DNA of 64,000 nucleotides, taken from Nitrospirota bacterium. GTDB taxonomy: Bacteria; Nitrospirota; Thermodesulfovibrionia; Thermodesulfovibrionales; UBA6898. Positions 4,784 to 26,343 of the stretch are shown in pieces. The notes beneath the pieces are model-generated. The model saw only the letters and a list, made by a program, of their open reading frames with translations, did no database searches and was not told the origin of the DNA. Position numbers and translations under genes: made by a program. The stretch covers positions 2,641 to 66,640 of the forward strand of contig JACRLQ010000054.1 of assembly GCA_016215155.1 (NCBI GenBank), in the 5' to 3' direction. Each line of letters opens with the position of its first letter. Positions within the stretch are counted from its first letter, which is position 1.

Positions 4784-5566
4784 ATGATAGAAATATATAA
4801 AAAGCTCCCCAAAACAAATTGCGGCAGGTGCGGCGCCGCAACCTGCATGGCTTTTGCCGCCATGGTCAAGAAGGCGCAGGCCGTACTCCCGGATTGTCCC
4901 TTTATGGGGGCGGATAGCACCCCGGAAGCGGGGCCTAAGGACGCAGGCGCAAGTCCTTTCAGCACCTACGAGCAGGTCAGTGATGAACTCGAAAAAGAGG
5001 CGACGGCGCTGGACTTCGCCGAGACCGCCCCGGTCCTGGGGGGGACCTATGTTTCACCGGGCGGCAGGGAAGCCATTGTACTTAGGATGATGAATAAAAC
5101 CTACGAGCTCCGGAAAGAGGGCCTGTTCGAAAATAACTCGCGCTGCGAAGACCCATGGACGAAGATCATCATGTATGACTATGTGAGAAGGAAGGGCAGG
5201 GGTAACCTCACGGGGGAATGGATCAACCTGGGCCACTTTCCCGATACGGCGTCTCACGTGAAGGCCTTTCAGGCAGACGCCGACAGAAAGGTCGCCGAGA
5301 GTTTTAAAAATGACGTCGAGGGGCTTGCCCGGCGCTCCAGGGAGTTGGGAGGCATAAAAGCTGAAGGGCGGATAAAGGCGGACTGCACTTATCGTTTTGA
5401 CCTGCTGCCGCATGTGCCGCTTTACCTGCTATTTTGGGCCGCGGACGATGAATTCGGGGCGGAATGCAGGCTTCTGTTCGACAGCAGCGCGGAAGGTTTT
5501 ATAGACATTGAATACCTTGCCTATCTTCTGGAGCGGTTTGTGGCTGAACTGACCGGGGCGCGGTAA
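4784..5566 (+). CDS. Fe-S motif / DUF3786 protein
   Basis: A 260-residue cytosolic protein. Residues 1-45 carry the corrinoid/CODH-type four-cysteine iron-sulfur motif: TNCGRCGAATCMAFA, with the fourth Cys in LPDCPFMG. The remainder, from about 65 on, is a DUF3786-type domain with a conserved WTKIIMYDY segment, GEWINLGHFP, and a C-terminal YLLFWAADDEF region. Family members occur in anaerobes with C1 or corrinoid metabolism, but no activity is established. Here it is monocistronic, between two miniature repeats. A redox or corrinoid-protein-related role is inference only. Confidence 0.75.
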   Translation: MIEIYKKLPKTNCGRCGAATCMAFAAMVKKAQAVLPDCPFMGADSTPEAGPKDAGASPFSTYEQVSDELEKEATALDFAETAPVLGGTYVSPGGREAIVLRMMNKTYELRKEGLFENNSRCEDPWTKIIMYDYVRRKGRGNLTGEWINLGHFPDTASHVKAFQADADRKVAESFKNDVEGLARRSRELGGIKAEGRIKADCTYRFDLLPHVPLYLLFWAADDEFGAECRLLFDSSAEGFIDIEYLAYLLERFVAELTGAR

Positions 5567-5748: not shown

Positions 5749-7407
5749 CTACTTCTCTTTTCGCATCTTCTTAAACGCGTTGATCAGCCCGTTGGTAGAG
5801 GCGTCGTGAGAAGATACCGGAGAGTCGTCGGCCAGTTCGGGCAACACCTTCCCTGCCAGCTGTTTGCCGAGTTCGACGCCCCATTGGTCGAAACTGAAAA
5901 TATTCCATATCACTCCCTGGACAAAAATTTTATGTTCATACATGGCTATCAGGCTCCCCAGAGTCCTGGGGGTAAGTTTTTTTACAAGGACCGAATTGGT
6001 CGGCCGGTTGCCGGCGAAGGTCTTAAAGGGCGCAAGCCTCGATATCTCCTCATCGCTTCCGCCGGACAGTCTGAGTTCCCCGATCGCCTCAGCCCCTGAC
6101 TTTCCGGCCATAAGCGCCTCCGTCTGGGCGAAGAAGTTCGAAAGCAGGACAAGGTGATGCTCTCCTACAGGGTTGTGGCTTATGGCGGGGGCGATAAAAT
6201 CGCAGGGGACCATTTTTGTTCCCTGATGTATAAGCTGATAAAAGGCGTGCTGGCCGTTTGTGCCGGGCTCGCCCCAGATCACGGGGCCGGTCTGGTAACT
6301 GACGGGGCGGCCGTTTCTGTCGACGCATTTTCCGTTGCTCTCCATATCAGCCTGCTGAAGATAGGCGGGAAACCTGTGCATATACTGGTCATAGGGAAGG
6401 ATTGCGTGGGTCTCAGCTCCGAAGAAGTTATTGTACCAAAGGCCTATCAGGCCGAGCATGACAGGGATGTTTCTTTCGAACGGGGCCTCCCTGAAATGCA
6501 GGTCCATGGCGTGAGCGCCTTCAAGCAGTTCCCTGAAACGGTCAAACCCGATTGCGCAGGCGATCGAAAGGCCCACGGCTGACCAAAGCGAATACCGGCC
6601 TCCGACCCAGTCCCAGAAAGTGAACATGTTTTCAGGGTCGATCCCGAATTTCCGGACCTCGGAGGTATTTGTCGAAATGGCGGCGAAATGCCTTCTGATA
6701 TGTTTTTTGTCCCCGGCGCCCTCCAAAAACCAGGCCCTGGCCGTGGCGGCGTTCACCATGGTCTCCTGTGTGGTGAAAGTCTTCGAGGCGATGAGAAAAA
6801 GGGTGGTATCCGGCGAGAGTCCCTTCAGGGTCTCCGTGATGTGCGTACCGTCAATGTTCGAGACAAAATGCGCATTAATGTGAGGGACGCGGTAATGTTT
6901 CAGGGCCTCGGTGACCATGACCGGACCAAGGTCGGAACCCCCGATCCCTATATTGACGATGTCTGTTATTGCCCTGCCTGTATGGCCCCTCCAGGCGCCT
7001 GATATGACGGCCCCCGAAAAGGCCTCCATCTGCCCGAGGACAAGATTGACCTGGGGCATAACGTCCTTACCGTCAAGATACAAAGGCAGGCCGGACCTGT
7101 TTCGCAAGGCCACGTGAAGGACGCCGCGGTCCTCGGTCTCGTTGATGCGGTCGCCCGCGAACATCTGCCCTATCGCTTCGCTGAGACCCGCTTCCGCGGC
7201 AAGTCCAACGAGGAGGGAGACGGTCTCATCACGTATGATATTTTTTGAATAATCAAGGAGGACATCTTCAAAACGGATGGAGTATTTTGCGAAGCGCTCC
7301 GGGTCCTCCAAAAACATCTCCCTGATTAGGGCGTCCTTCATAACGCCGTAATGCGCGAGGAGTTTCCCCCACGCGTCTGTTGTGACAGGGTTATTGTGCG
7401 GCAGCAT
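5749..7407 (-). CDS. pgi: Glucose-6-phosphate isomerase
   Basis: A 552-residue enzyme interconverting glucose-6-phosphate and fructose-6-phosphate in glycolysis/gluconeogenesis. Visible signatures are [16 protein letters not shown] (phosphate-binding region), the PGI signature [16 protein letters not shown], and the catalytic region [13 protein letters not shown]. Length and motif order match the large (E. coli-type) PGI. ATG 7407 was chosen because AAGGAGGA lies just upstream; the longer frame to 7449 lacks a site. It lies 72 bases downstream of the chemoreceptor gene on the same strand, so the two may be co-transcribed. Confidence 0.95.
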
Positions 7408-7479: not shown

Positions 7480-10413
7480 TTACCCCCCGTGGCCCCTGGC
7501 GCCCTTGTCCTTCAGCCTGAGGCGTTTGTCGTCACCGGCGCCGGCGTCGAACCCCTGTATTTTTTCCCTGAAGATGTCATAGTCTTTTTCAGACGCAGGC
7601 ATAAAGCCGGTGCAGTCACGTCCGAGCGATTTAAGGACCACCGCGTCATCGCTCCTGTTGATGTCAAGCGAGACCAGAGAGTCTTTTATCGCGGCCATAA
7701 CGGCCGGGTCAAGGGTCGGATTGCAGCAGACATTGAACTCAGGGATCTCGGACGTCAACTCCAGTATCCTCAACCCCTTGTCCGCAAGTTTGTTTGCGGA
7801 TTCCTCCGGCATGCCCCCGGCGTCGAACTCGCCGTTTATGACGGCCTTTGCGACTTTATCGTGGGTGCCCAGGAACTGATGGCGCTTCAGGTCCGCGACC
7901 GTTATTCCCGCGTCCCTAAGCGCGGCGAGCGGCATAATATGGCCCGTGGCCGACTTTGGACTTACCAGCGCCAGTGATTTTCCCTTCATTTCCCGAAGGG
8001 ATTTAAGGGGTGAGTCCGTCTTGACCACGATCGCGGCGCGATGGAAGGGGACGCCTTTCCGAAGGGCCTTCGCAAGCACCTTGACCCCGTACCGGGTGTT
8101 GGCTTCTATATAATTGGCCGGCCCCATAGCGCAAAGATGCGTGACATTTGTCCCGATGTCCGTCACCGCGCTGTCCATATCTATGGCGACTTTCAGGTCA
8201 ATCGTCCTGCCCAGTTTTTTGTTCAGATATTCGGAAAGGGGTGTGAATTTCCTGAACATGACAGAGGGTTCCTGAAGAGGCACTACGCCAAACCGCAGTG
8301 TATCGCCCCTCTGCGCGGAAAACCTGAAGCGCTCCATCTCGGCCTTAAGGAGTTCGGCGTCCTTCTGAAGGTTCCAGAGGGTCGCGCTGATGCGGAAGGC
8401 AAGGTCCCTGTTCTGGACAGGGATTTCCTTTACCGATTCGATGCTTTCGAGGATAATTGCGGCCCCTTTTTTCTGCTCGGAGAGCGCCATGGAGATCTGG
8501 CGGCTTTTTTCGGAGACGAGCTCTGTTGCCTTTGATATCTGTCCGCTGCTTGTGGCCTGTTCCCCGGTCGCCTTGCTCACGGTAAAAGACAGTTCCTTCA
8601 TCTCTTCGGCAGCCTTTGTGATAAGGGCAACGCCCCTTGACTGTTCGGCGGTCGCCCGGGCAATATTGTCCATCATCTTCCTGACCCGCTCGGTGTTTTC
8701 CATGACCTGCCCCGCGGCCCTGGACTGTTCACTGGTGGACCTTTTTATCGAGAGGGTCATTTCGGACGATTTCCGCGAACTGGTAAGTACTTTCCGTAAG
8801 GCCTCCTCGGTATTTCGCGCCAGCTTAAGGCCTTCTTCCACGGCGTTTATGCCCCTGGTCATCGCGTCTTCGGCGTTTCCTACCTCCTGCTGGACCGCCT
8901 CTATGAGGGCGGCTATGTCCCCCGTGGAGTCACCGGTCCTTTCCGAGAGGTCCTTCATCTCGGCGGCGACTACCGAGAAGCCCCTGCCGTGCTCCCCGGC
9001 CTGAGCGGCCAATATCGCCGCGTTTAAGGAGAGGAGGTTGGTTTCGTCGTTTACGGACTGTATCACGCTCAGGATCTTTTCGATCTCCTTTGACCTCGCC
9101 CCGAGCGCGTTAATGCAGTTGGCGGTGTTTTTTACGGAAGAGGCTATTTCGTTCATGCCCTCTACCGTCTTGGCGATCGAGGCCATGCCGAGGGTACCCG
9201 CCTCGCTTGTGACCTTTTCAGAGAGAACGGCCGATTCCCTCGCGTTCGTCTCCACTTCCTTTATTGAGGAGGCTATCTCCGAGATCGCCGAGACGGTCTC
9301 TTCGGTGGCCACTGACAGTTCCCCAGAACTATCCGCCACCTCTTTTATTGTCGCCGAAAGTTCAGTGATGGAGGTGGAGGTGGACTCGACCGTGCCATCG
9401 AGATGCTGAATGCTTTCGTTTATATGCCTGATGCTCGAGACCATCTGGTCTATCGAGGCCGACGCGTCTTCGGCGGATGAGGCGAGGTCTTCCGTGTTAT
9501 CGGCTATCTCGGTCGTGGTGGCGTTTAATTCTTCCATGGAGCTGGAGATATTGGCCGTGGCCACCGCCTCTTCCTCGGCGCCCTTTAAGACCTTCTCGGA
9601 TTCCTCTTCCACCTCTTCGACGACCTTCAGTATTCTGTCGGAAAGTTCTTTTATCCTCAGAAGCACCCTCTCAAGGGACAGGAAGGAGCCCCTGAGGAGC
9701 CTGCTGACCCCGGCGATCTCGTCGTCTCCGCTTATCTCAAGCGTGAAGGAAAGGTCGCCTTCGGCTATCTTCGTGACAGCGGCCTCGATGGACTTGACCG
9801 GCTTTATGACCATCTTCCTCAGCATCAGCCATAGTATGAGACTGAAGCCTACGGAAGCGAAAAAGGTGATGAAGATCACGATTTTAATGAGCGACATCGC
9901 CCTGTTATATTCCTCTTCTATGCCGACGGAGACCCTGACGGCGCCAAGCAGGGACTTCCCCGCTTCGTGGCAGCCGCGGCAGAGGGTCGTGTTCCTCAGC
10001 GGAAGATAATAGACGAGTCTCGCTTTTTCCCTGATGAGCAGCCGCTCCTTCCCCGACTTGAGTTCATTTATTGCGGATGCTTCCCTGACGGGAGAGCCCT
10101 CTTTGAAGGCCTCGCCGCCCTCGGCGTTCAGGACCGTGATATTGTCGATACCGCGGATCCGTGAGATATTGGCGATGAGTTTTTTCGTGATATCGGCCTT
10201 GCCCTCCAGCATCGTCGTTTCTATGTCCTGGAAGATGATGTTGGCGGTCTTTTCAGAGCTGAACCCGGTTATGCTGTAGAGGGTCTCCCTCTGGATCACA
10301 ACGGACATAAAGGCGGCGGAGATAATCCCGATGATCAATATGGCCCCAACGACGGCAAGCACCTTGAATTCAAGGCTTTTTTTCACAAACTCCGGCGCAT
10401 TGATCCTGAGCAA
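7480..10413 (-). CDS. Methyl-accepting chemotaxis protein with periplasmic haem motif and C-terminal PhnD-like domain
   Basis: A 977-residue receptor. TM1 is about 17-40. The periplasmic sensor (41-175) contains one c-type haem site, CRGCH at 145-149. TM2 is about 176-198, then HAMP (199-252) and a long methyl-accepting coiled coil whose hairpin tip is at about 455-490 (NLLSLNAAILAAQAGEHGRG). From about 705 to 955 a PhnD-like substrate-binding domain follows: LRFGVVPLQEP, LCAMGPANYIEA, SLALVSPKSATGHIMP, FDAGGMPE. This domain is normally periplasmic. Here no membrane segment separates it from the signalling hairpin, so it must be cytoplasmic. The start is TTG 10413 behind a GGGGG stretch. It should signal to CheA/CheW; no che genes are in the window. 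Confidence 0.88.
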   Translation of the reverse strand: MLRINAPEFVKKSLEFKVLAVVGAILIIGIISAAFMSVVIQRETLYSITGFSSEKTANIIFQDIETTMLEGKADITKKLIANISRIRGIDNITVLNAEGGEAFKEGSPVREASAINELKSGKERLLIREKARLVYYLPLRNTTLCRGCHEAGKSLLGAVRVSVGIEEEYNRAMSLIKIVIFITFFASVGFSLILWLMLRKMVIKPVKSIEAAVTKIAEGDLSFTLEISGDDEIAGVSRLLRGSFLSLERVLLRIKELSDRILKVVEEVEEESEKVLKGAEEEAVATANISSSMEELNATTTEIADNTEDLASSAEDASASIDQMVSSIRHINESIQHLDGTVESTSTSITELSATIKEVADSSGELSVATEETVSAISEIASSIKEVETNARESAVLSEKVTSEAGTLGMASIAKTVEGMNEIASSVKNTANCINALGARSKEIEKILSVIQSVNDETNLLSLNAAILAAQAGEHGRGFSVVAAEMKDLSERTGDSTGDIAALIEAVQQEVGNAEDAMTRGINAVEEGLKLARNTEEALRKVLTSSRKSSEMTLSIKRSTSEQSRAAGQVMENTERVRKMMDNIARATAEQSRGVALITKAAEEMKELSFTVSKATGEQATSSGQISKATELVSEKSRQISMALSEQKKGAAIILESIESVKEIPVQNRDLAFRISATLWNLQKDAELLKAEMERFRFSAQRGDTLRFGVVPLQEPSVMFRKFTPLSEYLNKKLGRTIDLKVAIDMDSAVTDIGTNVTHLCAMGPANYIEANTRYGVKVLAKALRKGVPFHRAAIVVKTDSPLKSLREMKGKSLALVSPKSATGHIMPLAALRDAGITVADLKRHQFLGTHDKVAKAVINGEFDAGGMPEESANKLADKGLRILELTSEIPEFNVCCNPTLDPAVMAAIKDSLVSLDINRSDDAVVLKSLGRDCTGFMPASEKDYDIFREKIQGFDAGAGDDKRLRLKDKGARGHGG

Positions 10414-10513
10414 ATTTCAGCCCCCTTTTTTTGATAATCGATATTACCATATATATGTATAAAAAAAAATGATAATAATATTCAGGGAGCGCCCCTAACT
10501 CTTCGGCTGCAAT

Positions 10514-10598: not shown

Positions 10599-10847
10599 AT
10601 GATCATGTCAAAGACAATTACCCTGCGGTTGAGCGACGAATCATACGCAAAGCTGAGTCTGGCGGCCAGGGAGGAAAACCGGAGCCTTGCAAACCTGATC
10701 GAGACACTGGCCCTTGGAAAACTCGAAGAAGACCTGTTCGCGGATGACTTCGAGATGTCTGAGATATTCACAAACGACAGGCTCCTAAAGAAGCTGGAAA
10801 AGGGGCACCTGCAGGCAAGGGAGAGGAAAGGCCGTTTCGTTGCGTAG
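10599..10847 (+). CDS. CopG/RHH-like antitoxin
   Basis: An 82-residue protein. The N-terminal strand KTITLRLSDESYAKLSLAA followed by helix EENRSLANLIETLAL is a ribbon-helix-helix DNA-binding fold. The C-terminal acidic then basic tail would contact the toxin. It starts at ATG 10599 behind AAGGA and overlaps the toxin gene by eight bases. It is expected to neutralise the RelE-like toxin and repress its own promoter. Confidence 0.85.
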   Translation: MIMSKTITLRLSDESYAKLSLAAREENRSLANLIETLALGKLEEDLFADDFEMSEIFTNDRLLKKLEKGHLQARERKGRFVA

Positions 10848-11121
10848 GTTCAGGGTCTTCGAGACCGGCCGGTTTACAGAAGACCTTGATCAGGATTTCT
10901 CGGGGAAGGGGGCGATGGTCCGAAAGAAACTTTCTGACTACGTTTATCCCCAACTCGCAGCTAACCCCTTTATGGGAAAGAACATCAAAAAACTGCGCAA
11001 CTATAAGCCGGATACCTGGAGATACAGGATCGGCAATTATCGTTTTTTTTATGAGATAGACGAGCATGAACGGATAGTCTTCATGCTGGCTGCCGATGCG
11101 CGGAAAGACAGTTATAAATAG
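10840..11121 (+). CDS. RelE/ParE-family toxin
   Basis: A 93-residue protein starting at TTG 10840 inside the end of the antitoxin gene. The core pattern GKNIKKLRNYKPDTWRYRIG, then NYRFFYEIDEHERIVFMLAA and a C-terminal RKDSYK, is typical of RelE/ParE toxins (mRNA interferase or gyrase inhibitor). The conserved W-R-Y-R-x-G-x-Y-R-x-x-Y core is intact, so the toxin looks functional. Target cannot be decided from sequence. Confidence 0.88.
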   Translation: MRRFRVFETGRFTEDLDQDFSGKGAMVRKKLSDYVYPQLAANPFMGKNIKKLRNYKPDTWRYRIGNYRFFYEIDEHERIVFMLAADARKDSYK

Positions 11122-24168: not shown

Positions 24169-24933
24169 TTACGCGTCCTGCAAGGTTTCCTCCTCCGCCG
24201 GGACCTGGTAATCTCCGGGCTCATAAATAGCCTGCGGTTCAGCAATGGCCGGCGGCTCACCGGAGAGCCTCCGGTATTCGACCGGATGTTCATGGAGCAT
24301 GCGCGACAGGGAGATCTTCCCGGTGAAAATGACCGTGTCCAGGGGTATTACCTCAGGACTGAAGATGGCGTTATATATGTGCCAGATGATTATCACCATG
24401 ACGGCCAGGAGCGCCTCATTGGTGTGAAGGGCCTTGGCCACCGGGACAAGCTCACCGGGGAGATAGTGCGTGACGATCGTCGGGAACCAGAGCGCGAGGC
24501 CCGTCCCTATCATAAGCATCCCTCCCACGACGACCCCCCAGTACTCGAACTTCTGCTTGTAGTCGAACCTGTCGCAGGAGGCCCCATGCTCCTGAAGGCC
24601 CAGGTAGTATCTGATATTCGCTATGGCGTCCTGAAAGTCCTTTTTGTGTATGATCATCGACGGCTGCCATTTAAGGGCGATGACCCCGAAAGACGCCACA
24701 AGGACGTGCTGAAGGGTCAGGACGGCGAGCATGATCCCGCTGTAACGGTGGACGAGGCGGGCCGTGTCTATCCCCCCGAAGCTCATGATGACCCATTGGG
24801 ACAGTTCATAGTTATGAAATTTCTGCGACAGGCCCGTCACCACCAGCAGAATGAAGGTAAGCGCGTTGAGCCAGTGCTCAGCTATGCGAAGCGGTCCGAA
24901 CCGTTTGATATATTTTTCCTGTGTGGTATGCAT
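24169..24933 (-). CDS. Cytochrome b (b561/hydrogenase-type) membrane subunit
   Basis: A 254-residue integral membrane protein with four to five hydrophobic segments. Likely haem-ligand histidines are visible in IAEHWLNALTFILL, RLVHRYSGIMLAVLTLQHV and IIIWHIYNAIF. This fits the dihaem cytochrome b family that passes quinol electrons to periplasmic partners (formate dehydrogenase gamma / hydrogenase cytochrome b type). The C-terminal ~40 residues are acidic and cytoplasmic. It follows the 13-haem cytochrome by 18 bases, so both likely form a quinol:cytochrome module. Confidence 0.85.
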   Translation of the reverse strand: MHTTQEKYIKRFGPLRIAEHWLNALTFILLVVTGLSQKFHNYELSQWVIMSFGGIDTARLVHRYSGIMLAVLTLQHVLVASFGVIALKWQPSMIIHKKDFQDAIANIRYYLGLQEHGASCDRFDYKQKFEYWGVVVGGMLMIGTGLALWFPTIVTHYLPGELVPVAKALHTNEALLAVMVIIIWHIYNAIFSPEVIPLDTVIFTGKISLSRMLHEHPVEYRRLSGEPPAIAEPQAIYEPGDYQVPAEEETLQDA

Positions 24934-24951
24934 GGCGTTCTCCTTTTTTTG

Positions 24952-26343
24952 TCATCTGTTGACGATGTATCTCCATATATGCAGAAATATCTGGAGAAGA
25001 AGTCCTACTATCATGAACGGTATGAACATTCTGTAGCCCCAGTCGATCATGAATACCATTGGGGCCTTGCTGAAATTGGGTTCGTAATGCGAGATCCAGC
25101 TGTCAGGGAAATTCGCGGTCGCGCCGGGATGGCATTTCTGGCAGCGTTTTGTAAGGTTCTGTTTGACGATTGCGGCGTTCCCGGACTTTACCCTTGCAAT
25201 GTCATGAACGCCGTGGCAGTCTATGCAGACGGCTATCTGTTTGTCCGTCTTTCCGAACTGCCTGTAAAATTTCATGGTAACGCCATGGAAGTCCTGAAGA
25301 TATGTGTCCACGACCTTTGTGGAAAGCCCGTATTTCTGCATGATCTCTTTTTTCTCATGGCATCCGGCGCAGGTCTGGGGCACCGAGATCCTGAAATCCG
25401 CCGTATGAGGTCCGGCATTGTCGTGGGCCTTGTGGCAGTCCGAGCAGATGGGCACATCTTCTATATGCTCGTCTATCAGGGCGGCGCCATGCACGCTTTT
25501 TGCGTATACGGCATATACGGCGCTATGGCACTGCTCGCATTTTTTTGCGTTTGCGAGTCTGTCCTTCCGGGCGGAGGCTATGGCATGAGACCCGTGACAG
25601 TCCGTGCAGACAGGGGCATGGGTGTTGCCCTGGGACATAACCTTGAAGTGAATCCCCTCCAGAGTCTTGGCGTATTTGTCAAAATGGCAGCGCCGGCAGT
25701 TGTCGGCCATGACCAGCATGAAATCCCGCTTGCTTCTGAAGTCCCTTAACGGATGGGATTCCGCGGACACCCGGACGTGGCAGTCGACACAGCTGAGGTT
25801 TTTATGGACAGAGGCGTTGAGGACGGACTCCTGCACCAGGATAGTTGCTTTTTCACCGTTTTTATAGGTCAGCGTCATCTCTTTGCCGTGGCAGGTGAGA
25901 CAATACTGGTTGCCTCGCGCGAGTTCGCGCACCCTTTTTATCCTGTGAGAGCCATGACAATCCGTGCAGATTGCCCCTGTCCCGGACTCGCCCATGAGTT
26001 TTTTATGTATGGGGTTGTCCAGCGTCGAATGACACTGAAGACACTGTCTCGCGGCAAGGGCGCTGAATTCCTTCTTGTTTTTGTAAGATTTGCGCTGGTG
26101 GTTTTCGGCGGTGAACCCGTGACAGGCGCTGCAGCCGATGGTCCCGTGGACCGATTTTTCGACATCCTGGGCGGTGACCTTAAGCTTAAGAATATCGCCG
26201 TTTTTGAAGGTCATGCTCTGCTGCGCTTCATGACAACCGAGGCAGGCCTGGTCGTCTTCTGAAAGGACGGCCCCGCAGCGCCCCGACGCGGCCAGAGAAA
26301 TAATAAATGCCGTCATCAAAATGAGTAGTTGCCTGTATTTCAT
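24952..26343 (-). CDS. Membrane-anchored 13-haem cytochrome c
   Basis: A 463-residue exported protein with an N-terminal signal sequence (about 1-24) and 13 CxxCH sites: CLGCH, CSACH, CLQCH, CTDCH, CLTCH, CVDCH, CRRCH, CTDCH, CEQCH, CSDCH, CAGCH, CIDCH and CQKCH. Many additional His residues can act as distal ligands. A C-terminal membrane segment (about 436-458, FIPFMIVGLLLQIFLHI) anchors it. GAGGAGG precedes ATG 26343. With the cytochrome b it would carry quinol electrons to periplasmic acceptors. The acceptor is not readable. First gene of a likely four-gene operon with the kinase and regulator. Confidence 0.92.
   Translation of the reverse strand: MKYRQLLILMTAFIISLAASGRCGAVLSEDDQACLGCHEAQQSMTFKNGDILKLKVTAQDVEKSVHGTIGCSACHGFTAENHQRKSYKNKKEFSALAARQCLQCHSTLDNPIHKKLMGESGTGAICTDCHGSHRIKRVRELARGNQYCLTCHGKEMTLTYKNGEKATILVQESVLNASVHKNLSCVDCHVRVSAESHPLRDFRSKRDFMLVMADNCRRCHFDKYAKTLEGIHFKVMSQGNTHAPVCTDCHGSHAIASARKDRLANAKKCEQCHSAVYAVYAKSVHGAALIDEHIEDVPICSDCHKAHDNAGPHTADFRISVPQTCAGCHEKKEIMQKYGLSTKVVDTYLQDFHGVTMKFYRQFGKTDKQIAVCIDCHGVHDIARVKSGNAAIVKQNLTKRCQKCHPGATANFPDSWISHYEPNFSKAPMVFMIDWGYRMFIPFMIVGLLLQIFLHIWRYIVNR

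Follow-up and report, generated by a model that had tools for sequence, protein, structure and literature searches.

Introduction

Solute-binding proteins are usually read as sensors of the outside of the cell. Among proteins of the PhnD fold, AioX and ArrX have a sensing role, and both are stand-alone proteins with no chemoreceptor fusion. Some chemoreceptors carry a cytoplasmic sensor such as CZB at the C-terminus, where the MCP helix ends. Receptors in which periplasmic and cytoplasmic sensing are combined are already known from DcrA and from hybrid systems (PMC8396549, available portion). In DcrA of Desulfovibrio vulgaris, a periplasmic c-haem domain and a cytoplasmic PAS domain occur in one chemoreceptor, and in GSU0935 and GSU0582 of Geobacter sulfurreducens a periplasmic PAS-like c-haem sensor between two membrane segments is followed by HAMP and MCP domains (same portion of PMC8396549). 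In GSU0935, Met60 acts as an axial ligand that switches with the redox state (PMC8396549, same portion). The transporter subunit Te_PtxB holds phosphite by Y55, Y100, S130, T131, S132 and H160, with Y208 as a cap, and its Y208F variant binds phosphite about 1000-fold more weakly (PMC5700983, accessible part).

The window described here, a stretch of 64,000 nucleotides of a Nitrospirota genome, encodes a chemoreceptor that shares features with each of these systems. It keeps the CxxCH motif and the axial Met position of GSU0935/GSU0582 but adds a C-terminal binding domain that is absent from those receptors as described in the portion of PMC8396549 cited. It differs from DcrA in that the cytoplasmic domain is predicted to be a solute-binding clamshell, not a PAS domain. 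The clamshell has the fold and family (PF12974) of PtxB, HtxB and PhnD; whereas these are periplasmic transporter subunits, the window domain is fused to an MCP, has altered cap and pocket residues, and is predicted to be cytoplasmic. AioX and ArrX were matched by both sequence and fold, and CZB is unrelated and much smaller. Among the papers listed by the literature searches, judged by titles and abstract beginnings, none was found to describe a PhnD-type cytoplasmic domain on a chemoreceptor, a scope outside which most subscription journals lie.

Gene and domain architecture

The first-pass annotation had proposed one 977-residue frame joining a CxxCH-containing sensor, HAMP, a methyl-accepting domain and a C-terminal PhnD-like domain. 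Translation of the window confirmed this frame and placed it on the minus strand, from 10413 to 7480 (Table 1), with a GGGGG run 7 nt upstream of the TTG start. The domain order from the N-terminus was TM1, periplasmic c-haem domain, TM2, HAMP, MCP hairpin, linker helix and PhnD-type domain. The Pfam matches were Mcp40H-20_sensor (1.8e-9), HAMP (2.8e-8), MCPsignal (7.5e-41) and Phosphonate-bd (8.7e-58), the last covering the entire profile. The features of a methyl-accepting chemotaxis protein were found, namely the MCPsignal domain with its hairpin, HAMP and two membrane segments. An assembly artefact or a chance fusion was rejected, since the same domain order was found in 59/65 loci of a scan of GTDB genomes.

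Table 1. Features of the chemoreceptor gene and its surroundings, in window coordinates
Feature	Position	Strand	Basis and remarks
Whole gene, chemoreceptor	7480..10413	minus	977 aa, TTG start at 10413; frame and Pfam
Putative purine-rich ribosome-binding-like stretch, AAAAAGGGGG	10421..10430	minus	7 nt 5' of TTG; sequence reading
TM1, residues 18-40	10294..10362	minus	hydropathy
Periplasmic c-haem PAS-like sensor, residues 59-163 (PF21563)	9925..10239	minus	Pfam; PDB 3b47/3b42 by sequence and fold
Met68, aligned with the GSU0935 Met60 axial-ligand region	10210..10212	minus	alignment; Met60 role from PMC8396549 (available portion)
CRGCH haem c motif, residues 145-149	9967..9981	minus	sequence; kept in 56/56 haem-bearing rows
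TM2, residues 178-196	9826..9882	minus	hydropathy
HAMP, residues 198-237	9703..9822	minus	Pfam
MCP signalling domain, residues 404-579	8677..9204	minus	Pfam
Hairpin tip, NLLSLNAAILAAQAGEHGRGFSVVA; LAAQ in place of Tsr EAAR	8959..9039	minus	sequence reading
Conserved linker, with helix 666-694 preceded by a proline break at P665	8299..8469	minus	sequence comparison, model
Predicted cytoplasmic PhnD-type domain, residues 708-945 (PF12974)	7579..8292	minus	Pfam, sequence, model, fold search
S821-A822-T823, equivalent of PtxB S130-T131-S132 oxyanion loop	7945..7953	minus	alignment; PMC5700983 (accessible part)
H851, equivalent of PtxB H160	7861..7863	minus	alignment; H in 58/61
E892-F893-N894, F893 at PtxB Tyr208 cap position	7732..7740	minus	alignment
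pgi (phosphoglucose isomerase)	5749..7407	minus	Pfam; likely ATG 7407, 72 bp downstream of receptor; context only

Elsewhere in the window, a likely toxin-antitoxin pair lies just upstream of the receptor (10599-11121, plus strand), consisting of a ribbon-helix-helix/HicB-like antitoxin (weak match, below the cut-off) followed by a ParE-family toxin (PF05016, 1.9e-7). Two long frames on opposite strands overlap at 24286-25749 (plus), which has no Pfam match, and 24952-26343 (minus), which is a multihaem cytochrome.

The hairpin tip of the window protein reads LNAAILAAQAGE. At the positions that we take to be the trimer contacts E385 and R388 of Tsr, it has L and Q instead. Among 56 GTDB frames, the first position was L in 55 and I in one, and the second was Q in 53, K in two and H in one. 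Frames of 600-720 aa from the same gene cluster, presumed to be the operon's second MCP, had the same hairpin type in 30/30 cases with the pattern found. The L/Q hairpin is a consistent subclass and not a loss, and E385/R388 are not defining for all MCPs. In G000, the genome that carries the window, hairpins of the ILAAQ or ILASK type were found in the window copy and on contigs C3 and C40 (ILASK on C40), and EAAR was found on C80. As it shares the ILAAQ hairpin type, the window receptor probably joins the array of the operon on C3.

Predicted membrane topology

It had been proposed that the solute-binding domain faces the inside of the cell, an unusual placement that an additional membrane segment between the hairpin and the C-terminal domain would contradict. 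No such segment was detected by hydropathy: past residue 210 of the window protein, the highest 19-residue mean was 1.05. Charges flanking the two membrane segments (K+R against D+E of 4:2 before TM1 and 5:1 after TM2) agreed with the predicted topology. A frame longer than 900 aa was present in 59/65 GTDB loci, and all 59 had exactly two hydrophobic segments, both N-terminal. With TM2 as the last hydrophobic segment, the protein is predicted to have its PhnD-type domain in the cytoplasm, a placement based on hydropathy together with the position of HAMP. In one variant (L166), a segment within the PhnD fold reached 1.71, and it is read here as part of the fold core and not as a membrane segment.

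It was also considered whether the domain might be exported and periplasmic, like ordinary PhnD. Other PhnD domains of G000 do look exported, with signal-like N-terminal stretches at C1:124295 and on C81, and at C1:186232 the PhnD domain is N-terminal, ahead of a membrane segment and a kinase. In the window protein, however, the domain lies C-terminal to HAMP and to the MCP domain, whose contact with CheA has to be made on the cytoplasmic side, and nothing beyond residue 210 resembles a membrane or signal segment. As the 59 full-length GTDB frames gave the same topology without exception, export is exceedingly improbable, and both an extra membrane segment and an exported domain were rejected on hydropathy.

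Predicted periplasmic haem sensor

The periplasmic domain of the window protein matched the sensor structures of GSU0582/GSU0935 by sequence (3b47, 7.2e-7; 3b42, 8.2e-7), and its model (pLDDT 85.2) matched 3b42 in Foldseek with an E value of 9.4e-8. Superposition on 3b42 and 3b47 gave a TM-score of 0.56 or less and a high rmsd, which could be expected because a monomer model was compared with a swapped dimer. The CxxCH motif was present in 54/59 GTDB rows and absent from five of the 59; with the window protein and the G000 paralogue added, it was present in 56/61. In these 56 rows, the Cys and His residues of the motif were invariant, and the position of Met68 was Met in 54. Cytochrome c assembly proteins are encoded in G000, and the periplasmic domain is presumably loaded with haem. 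Of the redox or gas sensing suggested in the first-pass annotation, a role as a redox sensor is plausible, given the conservation of the two axial-ligand positions of GSU0935.

PhnD-type domain and its pocket

A model of residues 649-977 (pLDDT 86.8) matched PtxB, HtxB and PhnD in Foldseek with E values of about 1e-19 to 1e-23 and superposed on HtxB, PtxB, XAC2383, ArrX, PhnD and AioX with VIA-align Z scores of 22-27; the VIA-align output also listed transferrins and further type II binding folds, which indicate a common fold only. The closest solved sequences were PtxB (5o2j, 1.9e-26) and HtxB. The comparison with PhnD that had been suggested as a check thus gave a clear match to a periplasmic-binding fold.

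Residues of the pocket were equated by alignment to Pseudomonas PtxB, with the Te_PtxB numbering transferred by eye. Y55, Y100, S130, T131, S132, H160 and Y208 of Te_PtxB correspond to M746, H791, S821, A822, T823, H851 and F893. Conservation was counted over 61 rows (59 GTDB frames, the window protein and the G000 paralogue): S821, E870 and E892 were present in all 61, N894 in 59, and H851 and F893 in 58 each. The mean conservation of 17 pocket and pocket-flanking positions was 0.84, against 0.66 elsewhere in the alignment. The window protein has Ser-Ala-Thr with His at the oxyanion site and most rows have Ser-Thr-Ser with His. Three oxygen-contact positions of PtxB are altered in the window protein (Y55 to M, Y100 to H, T131 to A), and the Tyr cap is replaced by Phe. 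Because the pocket positions are conserved but differ from those of phosphite binders, the pocket appears to be maintained, yet not as a phosphite pocket.

The proposal that the ligand is a phosphorylated metabolite was borne out in part: the Ser/Thr loop and the His of the oxyanion site are mostly kept, whereas the other pocket residues are unlike those of characterised phosphite or phosphonate binders. Since Ser and His are conserved, the best guess for the ligand is a cytosolic oxyanion or phosphorylated metabolite. XAC2383, one of the fold matches, is listed with bound ATP, which makes ATP a candidate. The adjoining pgi gene gives a weak hint at most, because other copies of the window group adjoin other genes.

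That PtxB and HtxB are the nearest solved relatives in sequence and fold could mean that phosphite or phosphonate taken into the cell is sensed, with taxis towards reduced phosphorus. This is quite unlikely in view of the cap, which is Phe in 58/61 rows, the substitution that weakens phosphite binding about 1000-fold in Te_PtxB (PMC5700983, accessible part). In addition, the C-P lyase protein PhnJ was not found in G000, and no ABC transporter gene occurred among the Pfam-scanned neighbours, five near the window gene and nine near the paralogue on C3. Phosphite and phosphonate were rejected as likely ligands on the cap change, the pocket and the missing PhnJ, and the oxyanion or phosphorylated metabolite is retained as the preferred candidate.

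Distribution and gene neighbourhood

G000 (3.43 Mb, 101 contigs) matched PF12974 at nine places, one of which is a second fusion, on C3, in a frame of 1040 aa. In a set of relatives, the C-terminal query was matched in 40/41 genomes, often within frames of 950-1000 aa. Among 395 Nitrospirota genomes, 158 matched alignment A1 at E up to 1e-40; matches to linker plus PhnD, defined by E up to 2e-83 to A1, occurred at 99 places, distributed over 91 genomes, and 84 of the 99 lie in frames of 930 aa or more. The GTDB scan covered about 85,000 species and gave 65 loci, 61 of which bear Nitrospirota-type names (the other four are L097, L109, L133 and L136). Its queries were two peptide patterns derived from the Nitrospirota proteins, so it could have missed divergent fusions in other phyla. 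Of the six loci outside the 59 full-length ones, three are cut short (L087, L095, L144), two have a split or gapped frame (L116, L137), and one, L119, has a 303-aa frame that begins inside the linker. A plasmid search gave PhnD matches below 60% identity in 862 records, counted irrespective of domain order.

Neighbours were counted in flanks of up to 5 kb, some contigs being shorter, and clusters were named by G000 members and by reading. Across the 59 full-length loci, CheW was found near 46, HEAT near 36, AAA_22 near 35, CheA near 35 and CheR near 25. At least one of CheW, HEAT, CheA and CheR was nearby in 49, and none of them in the other ten (L080-L084, L086, L105, L135, L136 and L141). 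The operon on C3 of G000 comprises, by Pfam, CheA, AAA_22, CheW, MCP-PhnD, PBP_like_2, MCP, CheW, HEAT, CheR and CheB. In operons such as L009:5100-18754, CheA and CheW are separated by an AAA_22 ATPase, and CheR is preceded by a long HEAT-repeat protein. The design thus recurs across one phylum, in most cases in the middle of a cluster of chemosensory genes.

No che gene was found among the neighbours of the window gene. In a tree of 101 PhnD rows, made by a quick method with midpoint rooting and containing long branches, the window copy fell in an eight-row clade (SH-aLRT 100) nested within the clade of operon-type copies. The fused domains need two label changes, and the starred branches are compatible with one origin. 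The window gene is best read as an orphan paralogue of the conserved che-operon receptor. Copies of the window type (group A) had no shared neighbours, pgi and icd each adjoining one copy, and DUF3786 was found near the window copy and one copy of genome G004 only. The DUF3786 protein in the window (4784-5566, plus strand) has an Fe-S domain, and a similar frame (L043:10520-11314) adjoins the G004 copy.

Tandem PhnD-PhnD proteins with signal-like N-termini were observed at L074-L078 and, as frames of 550-600 aa, in many Thermodesulfovibrionales genomes. In the tree, no sequence outside the MCP fusions is closer to the fused domain than one half of the tandem protein.

Constant and exchangeable domains

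Of the 99 linker-plus-PhnD frames, 15 were shorter than 930 aa. In 11 of these (L153-L162 and L168), TM1 and TM2 are close together with a short loop between them, the periplasmic domain is absent, and MCP and PhnD are kept, as judged by reading the sequences and by Pfam in two of the 11; in L154, just one membrane segment passes the hydropathy threshold. The remaining four either run off the contig (L070, L163) or are split or gapped (L062, L164). Four other candidates for shortened fusions or variants were set aside. The 669-aa frame of G005/L116 follows a distinct frame of 289 aa, and the 426-aa frame of G117/L137 comes with a run of N; both were taken as split or gapped. Those in G022 and G069 run off the contig end. 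In L040, a 4HB_MCP domain replaces the haem domain, and in L136, L138 and L043 no periplasmic domain was recognised by Pfam. Because the 11 natural variants without a periplasmic domain keep PhnD, the PhnD-type domain, and not the haem domain, appears to be the constant, defining sensor of the family, with a periplasmic domain that can be swapped or lost.

In G004 (L043:271-10499), a PhnD protein with a signal-like N-terminus separates two window-type fusions that lie about 4.4 kb apart; the haem motif is missing from the first fusion and present in the second.

The PhnD-type domain could instead be a spacer, or a degenerate, ligand-free docking module for CheR, CheB, a pilus ATPase or a second receptor, with haem as the sole sensor. 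Its C-terminal position is where CheR tethers act in MCPs of the E. coli type (PMC2577667, the part available), and several oxygen ligands of PtxB are altered in the window protein. The higher conservation of the pocket and its flanks, the invariance of S821, E870 and E892, and the retention of PhnD in 11 proteins with no periplasmic sensor argue against this reading, which is considered unlikely though deserving of some weight. A ligand-binding domain remains preferred.

Output

FliP was not found in G000, and a flagellar output was rejected for this genome; pilus ATPases are present in it. FliP occurred in 31/91 fusion genomes and in 237/395 genomes overall, a comparison that ignores phylogeny and genome gaps. 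As it is absent from G000 and from 60/91 fusion genomes, flagella are disfavoured as the general output. PilT (TIGR01420, E up to 1e-100) was present in 90/91 fusion genomes, which says little because 344/395 genomes have it. These counts allow type IV pili as the output without proving it; type IV pili, or else some other non-flagellar function, are the probable output.

Discussion

We consider, with a probability of about two in three, that the window gene encodes a dual-input chemoreceptor for periplasmic redox state and a cytosolic oxyanion or phosphorylated metabolite, in which PhnD is the constant part, and that it is an orphan paralogue with a non-flagellar output. This reading is built on the domain order, the predicted topology, the conservation, the paralogue operon, the variants and the absence of FliP, as obtained from sequence, models or counts; the haem loading, the class of ligand, the direction of the signal, the membership of the array and the output are what we infer from there. 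Outside, a swapped-dimer PAS-like domain with covalent haem c would report the redox state (or a gas) through His/Met ligation. Inside, the PhnD-type clamshell, placed where the returning MCP helix ends near the membrane, would bind a small anion of the cytosol, with an oxyanion or a phosphorylated metabolite as the likeliest candidates. Its opening and closing may act by way of the linker helix on the HAMP and adaptation end of the coiled coil, so that CheA, bound at the hairpin tip, would have its activity controlled by both inputs. The window copy would join the array of the che operon and act through type IV pili or another non-flagellar function.

A broader reading is tentative and falls somewhat short of even odds: the fusions may form a phylum-specific receptor class and be the main receptor of the Nitrospirota che operon, in which the cytosolic clamshell reads an internal phosphorylated metabolite or anion and thereby steers type IV pili according to the metabolic state of the cell itself, the periplasmic redox sensor being optional and exchangeable.

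The recurrence of this design at che clusters suggests that Nitrospirota combine an outside redox signal with an inside chemical one. With a conserved, inside-facing solute-binding domain that is kept even without the outside domain, the idea of energy taxis by measuring a metabolite directly would become testable, and this in a deep-branching, largely uncultured phylum. The natural series of receptors with a haem domain, a 4HB domain or no periplasmic domain lends itself directly to telling the two inputs apart, and ligand screening of one soluble domain would reveal what the chemosensory operons of Nitrospirota respond to.
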